From positions 1 through 49,795 of the IMG/VR virus record IMGVR_UViG_3300032954_000023: a stretch of 49,795 nt of DNA; one strand, written 5' to 3'. The notes beneath the pieces were generated by a model. The model worked only from the letters and a program-made list of their open reading frames with translations, was not told the DNA's origin and ran no database searches. Of the stretch, positions 5,764 through 36,794 are shown piece by piece; within the stretch, counting starts at the first letter, position 1; every line of letters begins with the position of its first letter. The stretch is from a virus. The position numbers and the translations under genes are program-made.

Positions 5764-7920
5764 GTGCATATCGAAACGAGACTTTCTCTCAAAACCATCC
5801 TCCAGGAGCCGAACCTCGTCCCATTCCTCGCGGAAGACGAAGTGCGCTGCCTTGGCTTTGACATTTGTGAGAAGTTCAAAGCAGACAAAGATTCGCGGCG
5901 TGAGTGGGAAGTGCGCATGCGACACGGTATGGAACTCGCCCTCCAGGTCTGCGACAAGAAAACATTCCCCTGGGAAGGCGCGGCCAATGTCAAACTACCT
6001 CTGGTTTCAGTAGGTGCTCTCCAATATCAGAGCCGTGTGTATCCAGCTCTCATTGATGGACCATTTCCTGTGGCTGCAAAACCAATCATCCCTGGCAACA
6101 AGGCCGAGGAGCAGCGCGCGGAACGCATTTCCGCGCACATGTCCTACCAGATCCTGGAAGAGATGCTCGATTGGGAGGAAGAGGCTGACAAGGCGTACTT
6201 GATCCAGGCCATCATGGGCTGCGTGTTTAAGAAGACCTGGTTTGACCCTGTGCGCGCGATCAACCGATCAGTGTGTGTCAACCCGCGCGACCTCTACATC
6301 AACTACTGGGCTACGAGTGTCGAAGAAGCCTCGCGCGTTACTCACCTCATGTACCTTTCCCCGAATGCGGTGCGGGAACTCCAACTCGCCGAGATCTTCT
6401 CCGCCTTCACCTCCGATCAATGGAAGGCTCAACCGAGCGTGCAAGGTCGCGAAGAAGTCGACAAGCGCGTTGGCTTGAACCCTCCCCCCGTCGATGACGC
6501 AACACCTTTCGAGATCCTTGAGCAATGCCGCTACATTGACCTCGACGGAGATGGCTATGCCGAACCCTACGTCTGTTCAGTCCGACACGACACGCAACAG
6601 GTCTTACGAATTGCTGCGCTCTTTACTCGCAAGGATATCGTCTGGGCCCGCGATCGGGCGACCATACTGCGAATCACTCCATGCGGTATGTACACTAAGT
6701 ATCCATTTATCCCGAGCCCAGACGGGGGAATTTATGACTTGGGATTTGGCAGTCTCCTTGGACCGCTTTCGGAAGTCGTGGATAGCGCGATCAACCAAAT
6801 GCTCGATGCGGGTACCATGTCGAATGCTGGAGGCGGCTTCCTTGGCAAAAACGCTAAGATGAAGAAGGGCGATCTGCACATTGCTCCGGGCAAGTGGATT
6901 ACGCTGGACTGCCCGGGCTCGCAGATGAAAGACGCGGTAATGCCGTTGCCGGTGCCGAAGCCGAGTGGGGAATTGTTCCAGCTGGTCGAGTTTCTGGTCG
7001 AGTGGGGACAGCATTTGGTCGGTGCCACCGATGCGATCCTCGGCCAAAACCCTGGCCAGAACACACCGGCCCAGACCATGCAAACCATGGTCGAGCAGGG
7101 GATGAAGACCTTCAACGGGATTTACAAGCGCACGCACAAGGCCTTCACGCGCGAGCTGCAAAAGCTCTTCCGCCTGAATGTGAATTTCCTGGCCGATGGC
7201 CGCTCGTCGTTCTTCGACACGAAGGGAAGCTCCGCAGAGATCTTCGGCACGGACTACACCTCTGACGGGATCAATTTGATTCGTCCGTCGGCTTCGCCCT
7301 TCTACATGTCGGACTCGCAGAGGCTATCCCAAGCGCAGGCGCTGTTCCAACTTGCGCGCTCGGGTCCCGGCTGGGATCTCTACGAGGTCGACCTCAACCT
7401 CATGCGCGCGTGGAAAATCGACGATCCGAAGAAGTACCGCGTTGACCCTGCGCTCCTGATGGAAGCTCAGAAGTCTGGCGATATGTCGAAGATTCCTCCG
7501 GGCGCGATCCCGATGCCGAACCCTCAGATGATCATGGCCCAAGGCCGAGCCCAAATGGGCCAGGCCGCAGTCATGAAAGCCCAGACCGAGGCAAAGGTCA
7601 AGCTCGGCGAGCTGCAAATGGAAGCCGGCAAGCTCAAATACGAAGTCGCTTTGCTCAGCGCCCAGGCCGCGAACCAAATGGCCCAGGCCAAAGGCGTTGA
7701 CCAAGGCCATGCGATCGCGCTCCTCGAAGCCCAGATCGCGGCCAAGAAAAACCACCTCGACAGCGTTATCAAAGCTCTCGAGCTGGCCCATGGTGTAATC
7801 GGAACTCAGGTAGACATGTACAATGAAGACGCTGACCGAGCCAATGAACTCTTTATGGCACAACTGGCGAACAAGCGAAGCAACGAAGCTGGTTCTGGAG
7901 GAGCTTCGGGCTCGGCGTAG
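5764..7920 (+). CDS. Portal protein (P22-type)
   Basis: A 718-residue portal, close in length to P22 gp1 (725). The ring at the capsid vertex forms the DNA channel and docks terminase and later the gp4-like adaptor. Recognisable features include the N-terminal wing with FPWEGAANVKLPLVS, repeated FLVEWG/VGATDAILG in the stem region, and a long Ala/Gln/Lys-rich helical C-terminal barrel (about 590-680). The start is GTG without a strong ribosome site, so coupling to the terminase stop is likely. Confidence 0.92.
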   Translation: MHIETRLSLKTILQEPNLVPFLAEDEVRCLGFDICEKFKADKDSRREWEVRMRHGMELALQVCDKKTFPWEGAANVKLPLVSVGALQYQSRVYPALIDGPFPVAAKPIIPGNKAEEQRAERISAHMSYQILEEMLDWEEEADKAYLIQAIMGCVFKKTWFDPVRAINRSVCVNPRDLYINYWATSVEEASRVTHLMYLSPNAVRELQLAEIFSAFTSDQWKAQPSVQGREEVDKRVGLNPPPVDDATPFEILEQCRYIDLDGDGYAEPYVCSVRHDTQQVLRIAALFTRKDIVWARDRATILRITPCGMYTKYPFIPSPDGGIYDLGFGSLLGPLSEVVDSAINQMLDAGTMSNAGGGFLGKNAKMKKGDLHIAPGKWITLDCPGSQMKDAVMPLPVPKPSGELFQLVEFLVEWGQHLVGATDAILGQNPGQNTPAQTMQTMVEQGMKTFNGIYKRTHKAFTRELQKLFRLNVNFLADGRSSFFDTKGSSAEIFGTDYTSDGINLIRPSASPFYMSDSQRLSQAQALFQLARSGPGWDLYEVDLNLMRAWKIDDPKKYRVDPALLMEAQKSGDMSKIPPGAIPMPNPQMIMAQGRAQMGQAAVMKAQTEAKVKLGELQMEAGKLKYEVALLSAQAANQMAQAKGVDQGHAIALLEAQIAAKKNHLDSVIKALELAHGVIGTQVDMYNEDADRANELFMAQLANKRSNEAGSGGASGSA

Positions 7921-31459: not shown

Positions 31460-31749
31460 GAACAGCCTCGGAAGTAGATTTTAACCTGGGATTCAGAGGA
31501 ACTAAAGTCGTTGAATGTTTCGAGACGAGGGATTGCGCGCCACCAGACGTGCTTGTGGCCTTCGAGTTGCTTTTCGAATTCGGTGATGGCCCAGAGGACA
31601 AGCTCGTTTGCTTGAGCTTCGGGACCCGCACAGCGGACGTGGAAGAGGGAATAGCCAAATTCCTCGTCTGGCCGAGACTTCTCGGCTTCGACGTGAATTA
31701 TGATGCCTTGATTGCGCATCCAATCGTAGAGTTTGTGTAGTTGGGTCAT
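31453..31749 (-). CDS. Small hypothetical protein in the replication operon
   Basis: A 98-residue protein (MTQLHKLYDWMRNQGIIIHV) with an alpha/beta pattern and a Trp/Arg-rich middle (GHKHVWWRAIPR). It starts at an ATGA overlap with the polymerase fragment stop. No family was recognised. Its position suggests a role linked to replication. Confidence 0.7.
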   Translation of the reverse strand: MTQLHKLYDWMRNQGIIIHVEAEKSRPDEEFGYSLFHVRCAGPEAQANELVLWAITEFEKQLEGHKHVWWRAIPRLETFNDFSSSESQVKIYFRGCSW

Positions 31750-32477
31750 TCACAATCTCCCCAGGAGGTTTCACTAGTCTTCAGGCCGATGGGCATAACG
31801 AAGGGCTCGTCGTATGGGACGGTGATGGAGCAGAGCTCGCGGATCTTCTCTACGCACTCGTCTCGTCGCGCGGTAGGGAATTCTCCGGCGATGGAGTCGT
31901 GAATCTGAAGTCGAACAAGGATTCCCCAATGTTCGCGCTCTTCGAACTCATCGAGATTGACGAACCCGGTGTTGATGCAAATGCTCGTAGTTGACTGGCC
32001 GATCCAAGCAACTGCTTCATTATAGACCGTGCCTTCGATACGTCCGAAGAACTTGCGCCGATAGCCGAAAGCATTTCGTACAGTGGCAGTCGTGTCCATT
32101 TGCCGCTTGATTCGGCTATGCCATCGAGGTATCTCTGAACATTTTCCGAGGTACCATTTTTGGACGCGCTCACAGTCGCTAACACTGAGACCAATTCGTC
32201 CTGCGATATTCGCAGCTTGACCGAGATAGTTAGTTCCATGGCAGAGGGACTTGAAGTTGGTGTAATGCCGGTGTTTTTTGGAGAAGGTTGGGTCACGGTA
32301 ATACTCCTTGCCCATTTCGACGTAGGGTTTTTTGCCCTCGGCAAACATGGCTTTGAGTTCACGGCAATCGGACTCCCATACGACGGTGCGCAAGTCGGCG
32401 GAGTCGAGGTCAAGGTCCCAGTAGGTGTTGCCGGCTTCAGGGACTATCATGCGGCGGATGTTCGGGAGTGTGGTCAT
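31746..32477 (-). CDS. DNA polymerase family A, C-terminal fragment (motifs A, B, C)
   Basis: A 243-residue protein holding the catalytic palm and fingers of a PolA-type polymerase. Motif A is DLDSADLR (D23, as in DYSQIELR). The fingers motif B is NFKSLCHGTNYLG (K76, Y84-x-G86), and motif C is QIHDSIAGEF (H193-D194). It begins MTTLPNIRRMIVPEAG, exactly the lead-in to motif A in phage polymerases. It lacks everything before this, which is encoded at 32662-34407. GGAGG lies 8 bases before the ATG, so it is translated separately. The fragments must assemble to form an active enzyme, unless the gene is decayed. Confidence 0.88.
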   Translation of the reverse strand: MTTLPNIRRMIVPEAGNTYWDLDLDSADLRTVVWESDCRELKAMFAEGKKPYVEMGKEYYRDPTFSKKHRHYTNFKSLCHGTNYLGQAANIAGRIGLSVSDCERVQKWYLGKCSEIPRWHSRIKRQMDTTATVRNAFGYRRKFFGRIEGTVYNEAVAWIGQSTTSICINTGFVNLDEFEEREHWGILVRLQIHDSIAGEFPTARRDECVEKIRELCSITVPYDEPFVMPIGLKTSETSWGDCE

Positions 32478-32480
32478 GGA

Positions 32481-32702
32481 TTAGTCCTCCACGTCAGGCG
32501 CACCGGGCGCGATGGAGCGGAGTTTGGAAATGAGGTCCTCCGGGGTGGAACGGTCGAAGGCGGACTCGAGTTGGAGCATGACGAAAAGACACTCACGCAC
32601 ACCGCGCCAATAGGCTTTGAGGACGAACGCGAACTTGTTGTTCGGATCGCTGATCTCGTGTTCAACCAGCCGCCTCAGCTGATTCGCCTTCTGAATGTTC
32701 AT
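32481..32702 (-). CDS. 73-residue protein between the two polymerase fragments
   Basis: A helical, charged protein (MNIQKANQLRRLVEHEISDP, then KAYWRGVRECLFVMLQLE). GGAG lies 9 bases before its ATG. It overlaps the first polymerase fragment by 41 bases and ends 3 bases before the ATG of the second fragment. It is in the same frame as the second fragment (TAA and one codon apart) and +1 to the first. It does not resemble polymerase sequence. It could be a linker or assembly factor, or an insertion that split the gene. No family was recognised. Confidence 0.7.
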   Translation of the reverse strand: MNIQKANQLRRLVEHEISDPNNKFAFVLKAYWRGVRECLFVMLQLESAFDRSTPEDLISKLRSIAPGAPDVED

Positions 32703-34407
32703 AGCTGGACTCCAAAGTTCTCTCCTTGCCGGGGAGGTTTTGTAGATTCATGCCCGATCCGAACGCGTTCTCGCTAGATGAGAAGCGCAGTGTAACCGTG
32801 CCTGCGGGGTTGAAAGAACACCGCACCAGTCCATCCACGTCGCGACAATCTCCGAGGAAAGTAGACTTGTATACAGAGACGGATCGGTACTCAAGAATAA
32901 GATTGACCAGGGGTTTAACAAGAGGCTCACGCTGACCAACGCGCGTAAGGCATTCATCGTCGCACGATGGCTGGCGGATTTTCCCAGGAGCAGCGCGCTT
33001 TCCGCGCTTGTACTCGGGTCGAAGGCATAGAGTTCCATAGAAGAATTCCCGCATTTGCTTGGGAGACTTGGGGTTGAGAGGCTGCCCGGCGATGTACTCG
33101 ATTTCGGCGAGTAGGTAGCGCGCGTACTGGTCCATTTGGAGCTCGAGTTGTGCGCGCATCTCGTCGTCGGTGCGAATGCCTCGAAGCATCATCCGAAAGG
33201 TGGCCCACCATAGCCTAATCTGGAATTGGTATTGCGAAGATAGTCCAAGGCTTTGAACAACGCCATCGAGTGCGATCGCGCATTCGAGGGTGCGGACGCA
33301 ATCTTCACAGTTATATTTCCAGAGGATACGCTCGTCCATAGCCTCTGCCCATGTTTTCCCATCTTCTTTCCAGAAACGGTATTGTTCGCAATACATGCTC
33401 GCAATAAAGTCCAGAGATTTGGGCAGTCCCAAGAAGCAAATATGCTGCTTGAGCATTGTATCATCGGTGAGCCGGGGTTGGAACTTGAAGTATCGCTGGA
33501 TGTATTGAGCATCGTATAGGAAGTTTTGTCCGACCACTTCAACCTTAGGGTGTGTAAGCAGTTGTTGGAGGAGGAATACAATCTCCGCTTCCTCTGCCTC
33601 ATTCCAATAGCCATAAGGGGCTCCTGATTTCATGAAAGGAAAGCAAATAGCATCATGCACAGACCAAGCAATGCCAAGGCAAGCAATGTGATAATGGCGG
33701 GTCTCGCTATCGACTGCCAGTCGGGTTGGTCCGGGCGCGGTGTCCACGAGGTCGTAGAGGCGCTTGAGCATGAAGGTGGCTTGCTCGAAGGAGGGCTCGA
33801 CGAGGAAGTTGTGGCGTGTGCGCGGCCAACCGTTGGTGAGACCGGATTGGATTCGACGGAGGTCCTGGACCATGACTCGCCGCAAATGCCACTGGCGAAG
33901 AACTGCGGCGGGGTTATAAGTCGGTACGACGACGCAGTAGTGCTCCCGCGAGATCGTCGACTCGAGTTGGCTTCCGCGCCAGTTGCCAATGCCCCACTCG
34001 CCGGTGAAGGCCCAGAGCGCGGCGTTGCCCAAGGCGATAACAAGTTTAGGCTTGACCCGTTCGAAGTCAGCCTTAAGCTCCTGCAGGGCTTTGTACAGCT
34101 CGGCAGAAATGACTCGCCCGTTATACCGAATGCCGCCCTTTGATAGAAACTCGTGCTCCTGAGTTTTGTTTGCGGCGAAGCAGTGCTCGATAAGCCCACC
34201 CGGCGGACGCGACTGAAGAACGTTGGTGAGATACATTTGCGCGCGAACAAGGCCTGCCTCCCCCATCATGAGAGTAAGTTCAACGCCACTGAAGCCGACG
34301 AAGGGCTCCCCGCGGGAAAGTTCTTCCGCGCCAGGAGCCTCTCCAACTACCATTACCTCGGCATTCGGTGGGCCAGACGGCTTGCATCGAAGGTCGACGT
34401 TGAGCAT
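32662..34407 (-). CDS. UDG-like domain + 3'-5' exonuclease + N-terminal polymerase A fragment
   Basis: A 581-residue protein. Residues 15-190 match a uracil-DNA-glycosylase-like fold (GEAPGAEE at 22-29, YLTNVLQSRP, VIALGNAALWAF). The usual HP motif is YNPAAV and only one Cys occurs in the N-terminal region, so the iron-sulphur cluster is probably lost. Residues 225-385 are a complete DnaQ-like exonuclease (D233/E235, N295/D299, Y365/D369). Residues 395-560 are the polymerase A thumb and first palm strands, ending with TLRFSSSEN and NLQNLPG. The last 20 residues are not polymerase-like. The rest lies at 31746-32477. Confidence 0.88.
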   Translation of the reverse strand: MLNVDLRCKPSGPPNAEVMVVGEAPGAEELSRGEPFVGFSGVELTLMMGEAGLVRAQMYLTNVLQSRPPGGLIEHCFAANKTQEHEFLSKGGIRYNGRVISAELYKALQELKADFERVKPKLVIALGNAALWAFTGEWGIGNWRGSQLESTISREHYCVVVPTYNPAAVLRQWHLRRVMVQDLRRIQSGLTNGWPRTRHNFLVEPSFEQATFMLKRLYDLVDTAPGPTRLAVDSETRHYHIACLGIAWSVHDAICFPFMKSGAPYGYWNEAEEAEIVFLLQQLLTHPKVEVVGQNFLYDAQYIQRYFKFQPRLTDDTMLKQHICFLGLPKSLDFIASMYCEQYRFWKEDGKTWAEAMDERILWKYNCEDCVRTLECAIALDGVVQSLGLSSQYQFQIRLWWATFRMMLRGIRTDDEMRAQLELQMDQYARYLLAEIEYIAGQPLNPKSPKQMREFFYGTLCLRPEYKRGKRAAPGKIRQPSCDDECLTRVGQREPLVKPLVNLILEYRSVSVYKSTFLGDCRDVDGLVRCSFNPAGTVTLRFSSSENAFGSGMNLQNLPGKERTLESSYEHSEGESAEAAG

Positions 34408-34907: not shown

Positions 34908-35095
34908 AGAGGAGCCCTCTTGGCAATTAAATCTGATTCAGAGGCTATTTGCTGCGCAACCTCAATTCTTAGTGCGTCGACCGCGCCAAGTAGTGCGCGC
35001 AACTCGACCGCACGACCAGACCTGGCCGTAGCTGCGAGAGCGTTCTTTAGTACTTGAACAAGCTCACTTGCTGACAGTTCATCTTCGAGTTTCAT
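34904..35095 (-). CDS. Small helical hypothetical protein
   Basis: A 63-residue, Ala/Leu/Glu-rich protein (MKLEDELSASELVQVLKNAL), probably a helical hairpin. It overlaps the ParB-methyltransferase stop and the next start. No family was recognised. Confidence 0.7.
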   Translation of the reverse strand: MKLEDELSASELVQVLKNALAATARSGRAVELRALLGAVDALRIEVAQQIASESDLIAKRAPL

Positions 35096-36399
35096 TTCTC
35101 TTCCTTAAGTTTTTGCAACCGTTCGATACAAATGCCTTGGAATGCGGGATCTATCTCGCACCCAATCGCACGGCATTTGCAGCTGTGCGCTGCAGGGAAT
35201 ATTGGTCCAGTCCCAGCAAACGGATCCATAACCACATCTCCTGGGCTAACGGATCGCCGGAGGAGTTCGACATACAGTTCAACAGGCTTCTGCGCAGCAT
35301 GGCCGAGTTGTGAATCTGTTGCGAACGGTCCGACCACATCGCTGGCGATAGCATTGACACCGCGATCTCCTTTTATGGCATAGAGGATAAGCTCATACCC
35401 ACGCCGAGGCCCACTAGTAGGCCAAGGAACGCGCCGAGAAGAAGCGTGGCTCTTAGCGTAGACGAATGGAGTGCGGTGGACCTTCCACCCAACACGAGTA
35501 AACTCGTAGCGGAGGAAAGCAAACTTATCGATGTCGCAAAAGACATAGAGATGAGCCTTTGGTTTGGTCACGAGGAAGGTCCAGCACGCGAAGGCCTTCA
35601 TCATCTCTTCCCACTCTTCTCCACCAAGGTCGTCATATGAATGGAGAATCGCAGTAGGATCGCCCCCGTCTTTAAACGTGTCCGCTCCCATACCGTAAGG
35701 TGGGTCGGTAAGGATGACGTCCACGCTCGATAGGGGACAGTCCAGTTCGCGCCAACTGCCGCAATGTAGGATATGCTCGTCAGAAAGCGATTTAACATCT
35801 ATTTTCTCCGCAAGAGCTGCATGGCGCGCTTTCTCTTCGCGCTTGCGCAATAGCTTAACTGCGTCCTTGACTGTGGGTGCAGCCGCGACCTCGGGATCGG
35901 CAAGGTGTTTGGCGACGCGAATAGAATCGCGCGTGAATTCCTCGGCCGATCCGCTTGCGCGTTCGCGAGAGGACGGGAATGCCTCCCGCGCGGTGTCGAG
36001 GACAGTTTGGTCTGGATTCTTCCTTGCGCGCAAGCTATGAAGGAGCGCAATTGCTGCCGCTCGCTCTTGCCAAGTAAGATCTTCTCGGCGGATGTTCTCA
36101 TCGAGTTGAGCTTCAGCCAGCGCCGTGTCGGAGTCGTCAGTGAAGACAAGAGTTGGCGCGTGGCCCAATGGTAGCTCGACGCCGTTGGAACGGATTGGAA
36201 CTCCCAAAGACGTGAGGTGCTTGATAGCGCGTAGTCGGCGTTCACCGGCCACCAAGGTACCGTTTGGCCGGATGACAAGGGGCTGTAGAACGCCCAAAGC
36301 GCGGATCGAGTTTGCAAGCTCGATGATCTTGGCCATGTCGAAGTGTTTACGTTGTCGATCAGGATCAATTTTTATGCCCTCGATAAGGTAGGGAGTCAT
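35092..36399 (-). CDS. ParB-like domain fused to DNA methyltransferase
   Basis: A 435-residue two-domain protein. Residues about 1-120 are ParB/Srx-like (VLQPLVIRPNGTLVAGERRL, with GERR at 52-55). Residues about 205-435 are an N4/N6 class DNA methyltransferase: catalytic motif IV TDPPYG (231-236) comes before the AdoMet-binding motif I DPFAGTG (about 392-398), an order typical of beta-type enzymes. It methylates adenine N6 or cytosine N4, probably guarding the phage DNA against restriction. The start was set at an ATGA overlap with the previous gene (GGAGG 5 bases upstream). Confidence 0.9.
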   Translation of the reverse strand: MTPYLIEGIKIDPDRQRKHFDMAKIIELANSIRALGVLQPLVIRPNGTLVAGERRLRAIKHLTSLGVPIRSNGVELPLGHAPTLVFTDDSDTALAEAQLDENIRREDLTWQERAAAIALLHSLRARKNPDQTVLDTAREAFPSSRERASGSAEEFTRDSIRVAKHLADPEVAAAPTVKDAVKLLRKREEKARHAALAEKIDVKSLSDEHILHCGSWRELDCPLSSVDVILTDPPYGMGADTFKDGGDPTAILHSYDDLGGEEWEEMMKAFACWTFLVTKPKAHLYVFCDIDKFAFLRYEFTRVGWKVHRTPFVYAKSHASSRRVPWPTSGPRRGYELILYAIKGDRGVNAIASDVVGPFATDSQLGHAAQKPVELYVELLRRSVSPGDVVMDPFAGTGPIFPAAHSCKCRAIGCEIDPAFQGICIERLQKLKEEK

Positions 36400-36794
36400 A
36401 CGCGCCTCCATTTCCAGATCTCATAGCCGAGTTCCTTAGCGATGCGATGCTCGACGCGCGCGCCTTTGGACTTGCGCCAGCCAGGAAGCATGATGATCGC
36501 GGTGCACTGGTTGATGAGGATCTGGAGGCCAGTGCGGAGGTATTCCTCGCGGGTAGGCTGGCGACGGAGGGTACAGTTGAGGTCGTCGCCGATTTCGACT
36601 GGGTTGATTACGAGGAAGCCTTGCGCGCGCATCTCCGCCGCAATCTCGTTGAACGCGAGAGCGTTGCGGTTGGGTAAGCCAGTCATGGGACCGGCGAGGA
36701 AGTAGCACTCGTCCTTGGGGAGAAGAAGACAGCCTTCCTCCTTGACTTGCGCGAGGCCGAAATTGCGGTATTCCCGCTCCCAGAAGGCTTTCAC
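36396..36794 (-). CDS. DUF4406-like protein (nucleoside 2-deoxyribosyltransferase-like fold)
   Basis: A 132-residue protein. ECYFLAGPMTGLPNRNALAF followed by a Glu-containing helix and AIIMLPGWRKSKGARVEHRI is the family signature seen in many phages. The fold resembles deoxyribosyltransferases that process nucleosides, although activity is usually undefined. The GTG start overlaps the stop of the 36791-36958 gene (GTGA). The frame stays open upstream through that gene to 37064, so the true N-terminus could be longer. Confidence 0.78.
   Translation of the reverse strand: MKAFWEREYRNFGLAQVKEEGCLLLPKDECYFLAGPMTGLPNRNALAFNEIAAEMRAQGFLVINPVEIGDDLNCTLRRQPTREEYLRTGLQILINQCTAIIMLPGWRKSKGARVEHRIAKELGYEIWKWRRV

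Follow-up and report, generated by a model that had tools for sequence, protein, structure and literature searches.

The viral contig analysed here very probably encodes a naturally split family A replicative polymerase of a tailed-phage-like virus, that is, a polymerase whose genes come in pieces and whose two halves would associate, with a 73-codon gene carried between them as cargo. The whole stretch, referred to as the window, is the IMG/VR viral contig IMGVR_UViG_3300032954_000023 (49.8 kb, possibly incomplete). The preliminary description of this DNA had suggested a real polymerase made as two polypeptides, and this was supported by a cut common to the relatives, by purifying selection and by intact catalytic and exonuclease residues, from which assembly of the halves may be inferred.

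Organization of the polymerase locus

Three open reading frames lie in one run on the minus strand, with the N half at 34407-32662, the middle gene at 32702-32481 and the C half at 32477-31746. The following features were identified:

33868-34377, minus strand: UDG superfamily domain, N-half residues 11-180 (PF03167, E=6.5e-23)
33280-33726, minus strand: 3'-5' exonuclease domain, N-half residues 228-376 (PF01612, E=2.4e-8)
32719-33153, minus strand: N-terminal third of the DNA_pol_A domain, profile positions 5-136 (PF00476)
32662-34407, minus strand: N half, 581 aa, with UDG-like domain, 3'-5' exonuclease, thumb and first palm part (R-x-S-S, NLQNLP), from Pfam, PHROGs and alignment
32710-32713, minus strand: Shine-Dalgarno (SD)-like GGAG, 7 nt before the middle-gene ATG and within the end of the N-half gene, from the sequence
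32662-32702, minus strand: overlap of 41 nt between the N-half gene (tail and TGA) and the middle gene, from the sequence
32481-32702, minus strand: middle gene, 73 aa, predicted three-helix protein without detected homologue, from codon usage, homology searches and AF2
32486-32490, minus strand: SD-like GGAGG, 8 nt before the C-half ATG, from the sequence
31746-32477, minus strand: C half, 243 aa, palm and fingers with motif A DLDSADLR, motif B K..HGTNY and motif C QIHDS (PF00476 positions 140-357, E=1.1e-14; alignment)

All three frames were thus found where a polymerase split at 31746-34407 around a 73-codon gene had been reported. The frames matched as well: the middle gene and the C half share one frame, offset by +1 from that of the N half, and the C half starts 3 nt (TCC) past the TAA of the middle gene, the junction reading TAA TCC ATG. 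The genes had also been credited with ribosome sites of their own, and SD-like GGAG and GGAGG do precede the ATGs of the middle gene and the C half.

In the Pfam search the N half spanned positions 5-135 (or 5-136) of the PF00476 profile and the C half positions 140-357, and in the PHROG 17 profile the two spanned 479-989 and 996-1234. As the halves tile both profiles, nothing is missing at the cut. The tiling agrees with the earlier view that the first gene ends past NLQN-LP and the second opens before motif A, and the cut site is the loop between NLQNLP and the strand leading into motif A. The N half ends in ...MNLQNLPGKERTLESSYEHSEGESAEAAG before its stop, with a non-homologous tail of 22 aa, and the C half begins with MTTLPNIRRMIVPEAG..., with a lead-in of 3 aa.

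Both catalytic aspartates and the lysine and tyrosine of motif B are located in the C half. The aspartates of DLDSADLR and QIHDS and the K and Y of FKSLCHGTNY were invariant in alignment A1, and the ExoI-III residues of the N half (D233/E235, N295/D299, Y365/D369) were invariant across six aligned sequences. Alignment of an unsplit relative with Taq and Klenow showed two deviations of the family, with the E of HDE replaced by S and the O-helix F by H. The DNA_pol_A domain is whole across the two halves, according to PF00476, to the Taq/Klenow alignment of an unsplit relative and to the fold match (TM 0.80) of unsplit L128. As judged by domain content, the outer two genes together are one complete family A polymerase. 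Besides these two halves, no family A polymerase, PolB or Pol III alpha was found within the possibly incomplete 49.8-kb contig. A scan of bacterial and archaeal genome contigs found no relatives of the C half.

The UDG domain (33868-34377) has kept GEAPG and reads YNPAAVLR at the position where family 4/5 UDG enzymes have the HPAA motif, and it may lack glycosylase activity. At 35092-36411, upstream of the polymerase genes, a ParB N-terminal domain and an N6/N4 DNA methyltransferase form one fusion; MW202489 and Mel-JY34 likewise have a methyltransferase gene upstream of the polymerase.

The middle gene

The codon usage of the middle gene resembled that of the window's true genes, which indicates a coding gene. 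Its own-frame codon log-odds was 0.199 per codon, as compared to 0.189 +/- 0.091 for the true gene segments of the window, and of 202 off-frame segments none exceeded this value. A search for homologues of the 73-aa protein, covering Pfam, PHROGs, records of phages and plasmids, viral contigs, the PDB and the records of 12 relatives, found none; the best matches were at chance level (E about 0.4 or worse). The single-sequence AF2 model consisted of three helices (pLDDT 74.5), and a search for a matching fold found none.

Nearest relatives share the cut

Four viral contigs with polymerases 61-73% identical to that of the window (L001, L002, L003 and L007) were all split at the window's cut point. 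L001 carries between its halves a 77-aa Cro/C1-type HTH protein (HTH_3, E=1.8e-7). L002, L003 and L007 have no insert; their C-half ATG falls before the N-half gene has ended, in the +1 frame. In the relatives, purifying selection on both halves is strong, with dN/dS about 0.07: the values from L002 and L003 were 0.073 in the N half and 0.076 in the C half. Between the window and L001 they were 0.19 and 0.07, respectively, with synonymous sites near saturation. These relatives imply that the split is stable and that both pieces are kept, and that the middle gene is no fixed part of the arrangement. Directly downstream of the C half, L001 has an HNH endonuclease gene (L001:2511-3052; PHROG 374, E=3e-46).

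Split and unsplit polymerases in a wider sample

Most of the relatives retrieved with patterns from the C half were unsplit, their linker being short (such as PKGGE...LPNIR), and six further ones were split; a scan with the N half retrieved many more split loci, with larger inserts. The sample comprised 121 distinct polymerases reaching the junction. Split members numbered 24, every one of them cut at the same loop. The two separate reading frames of the window's polymerase were collinear with one gene in relatives, as in genes in pieces.

Cargo was present between the halves in 13 of the 24 split members and absent from the other 11, several of which have the stop/start overlaps TAATG or TGATG. 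By Pfam, the cargo encoded dUTPase (L300, L302, L303 and L305), DUF3310 (L303, L311 and L312), an HNH_3 endonuclease (L291), a Lon_C-like protease (L280), DUF6378 (L292/L315) and HTH_3 (L001). A Cys-rich protein of 58 aa was found in L009/L289, and the cargo of the window and of L296 was left without assignment. Where dUTPase lies inside split UDG-polymerase genes (L300, L302, L303 and L305), the two may be functionally paired in the handling of uracil. Relative to the N half, the C half was in the +1 frame in 11 of the 24, in the +2 frame in another 11 and in the same frame in 2, and these mixed offsets rule out one common recoding mechanism.

In the first tree the split members required 5 changes, at least 4 of them forced by well-supported branches, and in none of 200 bootstraps were they united in one clade. 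Split L023 was sister to unsplit L128 with support of 100/98. Parsimony on the larger tree, of all 121 polymerases, gave 9 changes, of which well-supported branches force at least 5; this tree has no inferred root, and fission and re-fusion are indistinguishable in it. Forcing all split members into a single clade cost 453 log-likelihood units (p-AU 2.9e-53), and this grouping was rejected; the group was named after the first trees had been seen, but a rejection of this size can hardly be doubted. As reconstructed from these trees, split and unsplit states are shown to have interchanged repeatedly at one loop. One unsplit polymerase gene, that of L272 (ending at 7258), has an intein-like insertion in motif B, where CLTAGHEVLTPDGW...VFVTGN stands between AHG and TNYLG.

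Properties of the loop at the cut

The AF2 model of unsplit L128 (pLDDT 91.9, pTM 0.88) matched the fold of Pol I, with a TM of 0.80 by target length to 8oo6 and further matches to Bst, Klenow and Taq. The block of residues 551-560, at the junction, had a confidence of 68, the lowest of 80 ten-residue blocks. Where the window is cut, the unsplit relatives have a linker of about 12-18 residues. The mean best anti-SD pairing of the linker was -7.0 kcal/mol in split and -7.2 kcal/mol in unsplit members, as compared to about -3.2 kcal/mol elsewhere in the genes, where hardly any stretch pairs as well; the signal is weak in L001, L002 and L003 and is partly a by-product of Lys-Gly-Gly codons. The loop may thus be pre-adapted to fission, as a structurally loose segment in which a ribosome site is already present.

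We lean, with some reserve, towards a wider reading, in which the loop would be a recurrent natural fission site whose Lys-Gly codons double as a ribosome-binding site, and at which one- and two-chain forms would have switched many times. The gap would have been reused as a slot for small regulatory and nucleotide-metabolism genes, the 73-aa gene of the window among them.

Proposed explanation and alternatives

In the explanation that we propose, the polymerase chain is interrupted within the flexible loop that separates NLQN-P from motif A. The N half (with UDG, exonuclease, thumb and some of the palm) and the C half (palm with both catalytic aspartates, and fingers) would be translated separately, as two polypeptides encoded in a single gene cluster. 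Most likely the halves associate non-covalently and rebuild the palm, and the assembled enzyme would presumably be active. In many members the linker codons for P-K-G-G/D (AAR GGN GRN) read like a Shine-Dalgarno sequence, and a stop together with a nearby ATG would probably suffice to split the gene. The 73-codon gene would have settled in the intergenic junction opened by the split, as cargo and not as a required subunit.

Concerning the origin of the splits, rather than their function, homing endonucleases might have inserted and made the cuts, with cargo later replacing the lost endonucleases, as for Aeh1 nrdA. This is possible, and we consider it unlikely. The HNH_3 gene in the junction of L291, the HNH gene directly after the C half of L001 and the precedent in T4-like phages (PMC2988022) point in this direction. 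However, an HNH gene occupies the junction in only 1 of the 13 cargo-bearing members, many splits are stop/start overlaps (TAATG, TGATG) with no remnant, and a point mutation or small indel is the simpler origin. At the cut of the window itself, the middle gene has no HNH, GIY-YIG or any other Pfam match.

That the 73-aa protein is a clade-specific third subunit, or an assembly or regulatory factor, seems improbable. Its location between the two polymerase genes and its appearance as a real gene for a three-helix protein favour this reading, and the lack of homologues elsewhere leaves room for a specific role. The preliminary description had suggested a third assembly protein and proposed looking for conservation of the gene at the same place. 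This suggestion was not supported: L002, L003 and L007 are split without an insert, L001 carries the unrelated HTH protein, and the wider relatives have dUTPase, DUF3310, HNH or nothing. The missing conservation argues against a required subunit. As the relatives stay split with other middle genes or with none, the gene most likely represents passenger cargo rather than an assembly factor. The 73-aa protein would then be dispensable for the polymerase, although the closest relatives of the window are only about 70% identical and the absence of the gene there is no proof of its uselessness in the window.

Removal or bypass of the intervening segment, yielding one polypeptide through a self-splicing intron, a split intein or frameshift with readthrough, is very doubtful. 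In its favour, phage polymerases commonly contain introns and inteins, and an intron was suggested by the authors describing MEP401 (PMC10580990). A spliced intron had been named at the outset as the finding that would speak against two real genes, but no Rfam match was found over the window region, even at E=1, or at gathering scores in 13 related loci. The RNA of the region folds no better than its shuffles (z=0.34), and the region codes for protein, with coding-like codon usage. The N tail of 22 aa and the C lead-in of 3 aa are too short for any intein half. Many insert-free relatives are still split, with the C half in either the +1 or the +2 frame, and 3.6 kb separates the halves of MW202796. 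Programmed frameshift or readthrough was rejected, there being no common frame and both a stop and a shift to overcome.

A sequencing error or decaying pseudogene in what is a single metagenomic contig has a negligible probability and is refuted by the relatives. Both a +1 shift and a stop would be required (a single error had already been judged insufficient, and this stands), independent contigs have the same cut, dN/dS is about 0.07 in both L002/L003 halves, and the catalytic and exonuclease residues are kept.

A polymerase naturally split in this way indicates that a core replicative polymerase can come from two separately translated pieces cut through the palm. The repeated splitting at the same loop in evolution supplies split points that nature has already tried out and that two-part polymerases could use directly, and the pairs of split and unsplit sisters are material for studying fission and re-fusion. 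It also accounts for small genes of unknown nature within polymerase genes that could be mistaken for introns or errors during annotation.

Comparison with known split polymerases

The preliminary description had given no known example of a split polymerase with such an intervening gene. This has to be corrected, as the Methylophilales phages MEP401 and MEP402 (Zobellviridae) have a published split DNAP, for which the authors suggested an intron and left the matter open (PMC10580990). Like the window, they have a family A polymerase in two reading frames with a gene of unknown function, here of 77 aa, in between. However, their polymerase belongs to a lineage without UDG, and its cut immediately precedes motif A, about 15 residues past the position used in the window, where UDG is present. 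The MEP401-type split is best read, from these differences in domain content and cut position, as a case independent of that in the window. All 56 distinct MEP401-like loci examined were split, with an insert that varied or was absent; these came from the best 80 matches to MEP401 together with four named phages and do not constitute a survey. In the environmental phage MW202697 (L175:2282-2488) an R67-type DHFR-like gene lies between the halves (DHFR_2, PF06442, E=2.7e-22). In MW202796 seven genes, one of them annotated as a cytosine methyltransferase, separate the halves, and the distance of 3.6 kb makes splicing or recoding untenable there. Alcaligenes phage vB_Af_QDWS535 (OK172329), an isolated phage, also has its family A polymerase in two genes, but with the MEP401-type cut, no insert and an overlap of one base (TAATG).

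Polymerases with the same domain order (UDG-exo-Pol) and a similar neighbourhood include those of MW202489 and Microcystis phage Mel-JY34, with C-half identities of 49% and 37%, respectively; in contrast to the window, their polymerase is one gene. In Mel-JY34 a DUF3987 gene lies downstream of the polymerase.

Other phage enzymes whose split gene gives two polypeptides include the T4-related gp43 (43A/43B, phages 44RR and 25), of which the phage 25 halves co-purify with polymerase activity, and the NrdA of Aeh1, which is a functional enzyme (PMC2988022). These differ from the window in being a family B polymerase and a ribonucleotide reductase, and in that the interruption is a homing endonuclease gene or an insert that is not translated, instead of cargo. 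In jumbo phage MIJ3 the PolB gene is likewise in two pieces with a gene between, but the product is rejoined by a split intein (PMC6892783), whereas the window has no intein sequence. Fractured genes with split inteins were described by Dassa et al. 2009, as cited in PMC6892783. In the open-access literature searched, no description was found of fission that recurs at a single loop and leaves room for exchangeable cargo. Split phage polymerases are already known; the recurrence of the split at one loop and the use of the junction as a cargo site appear to be new.
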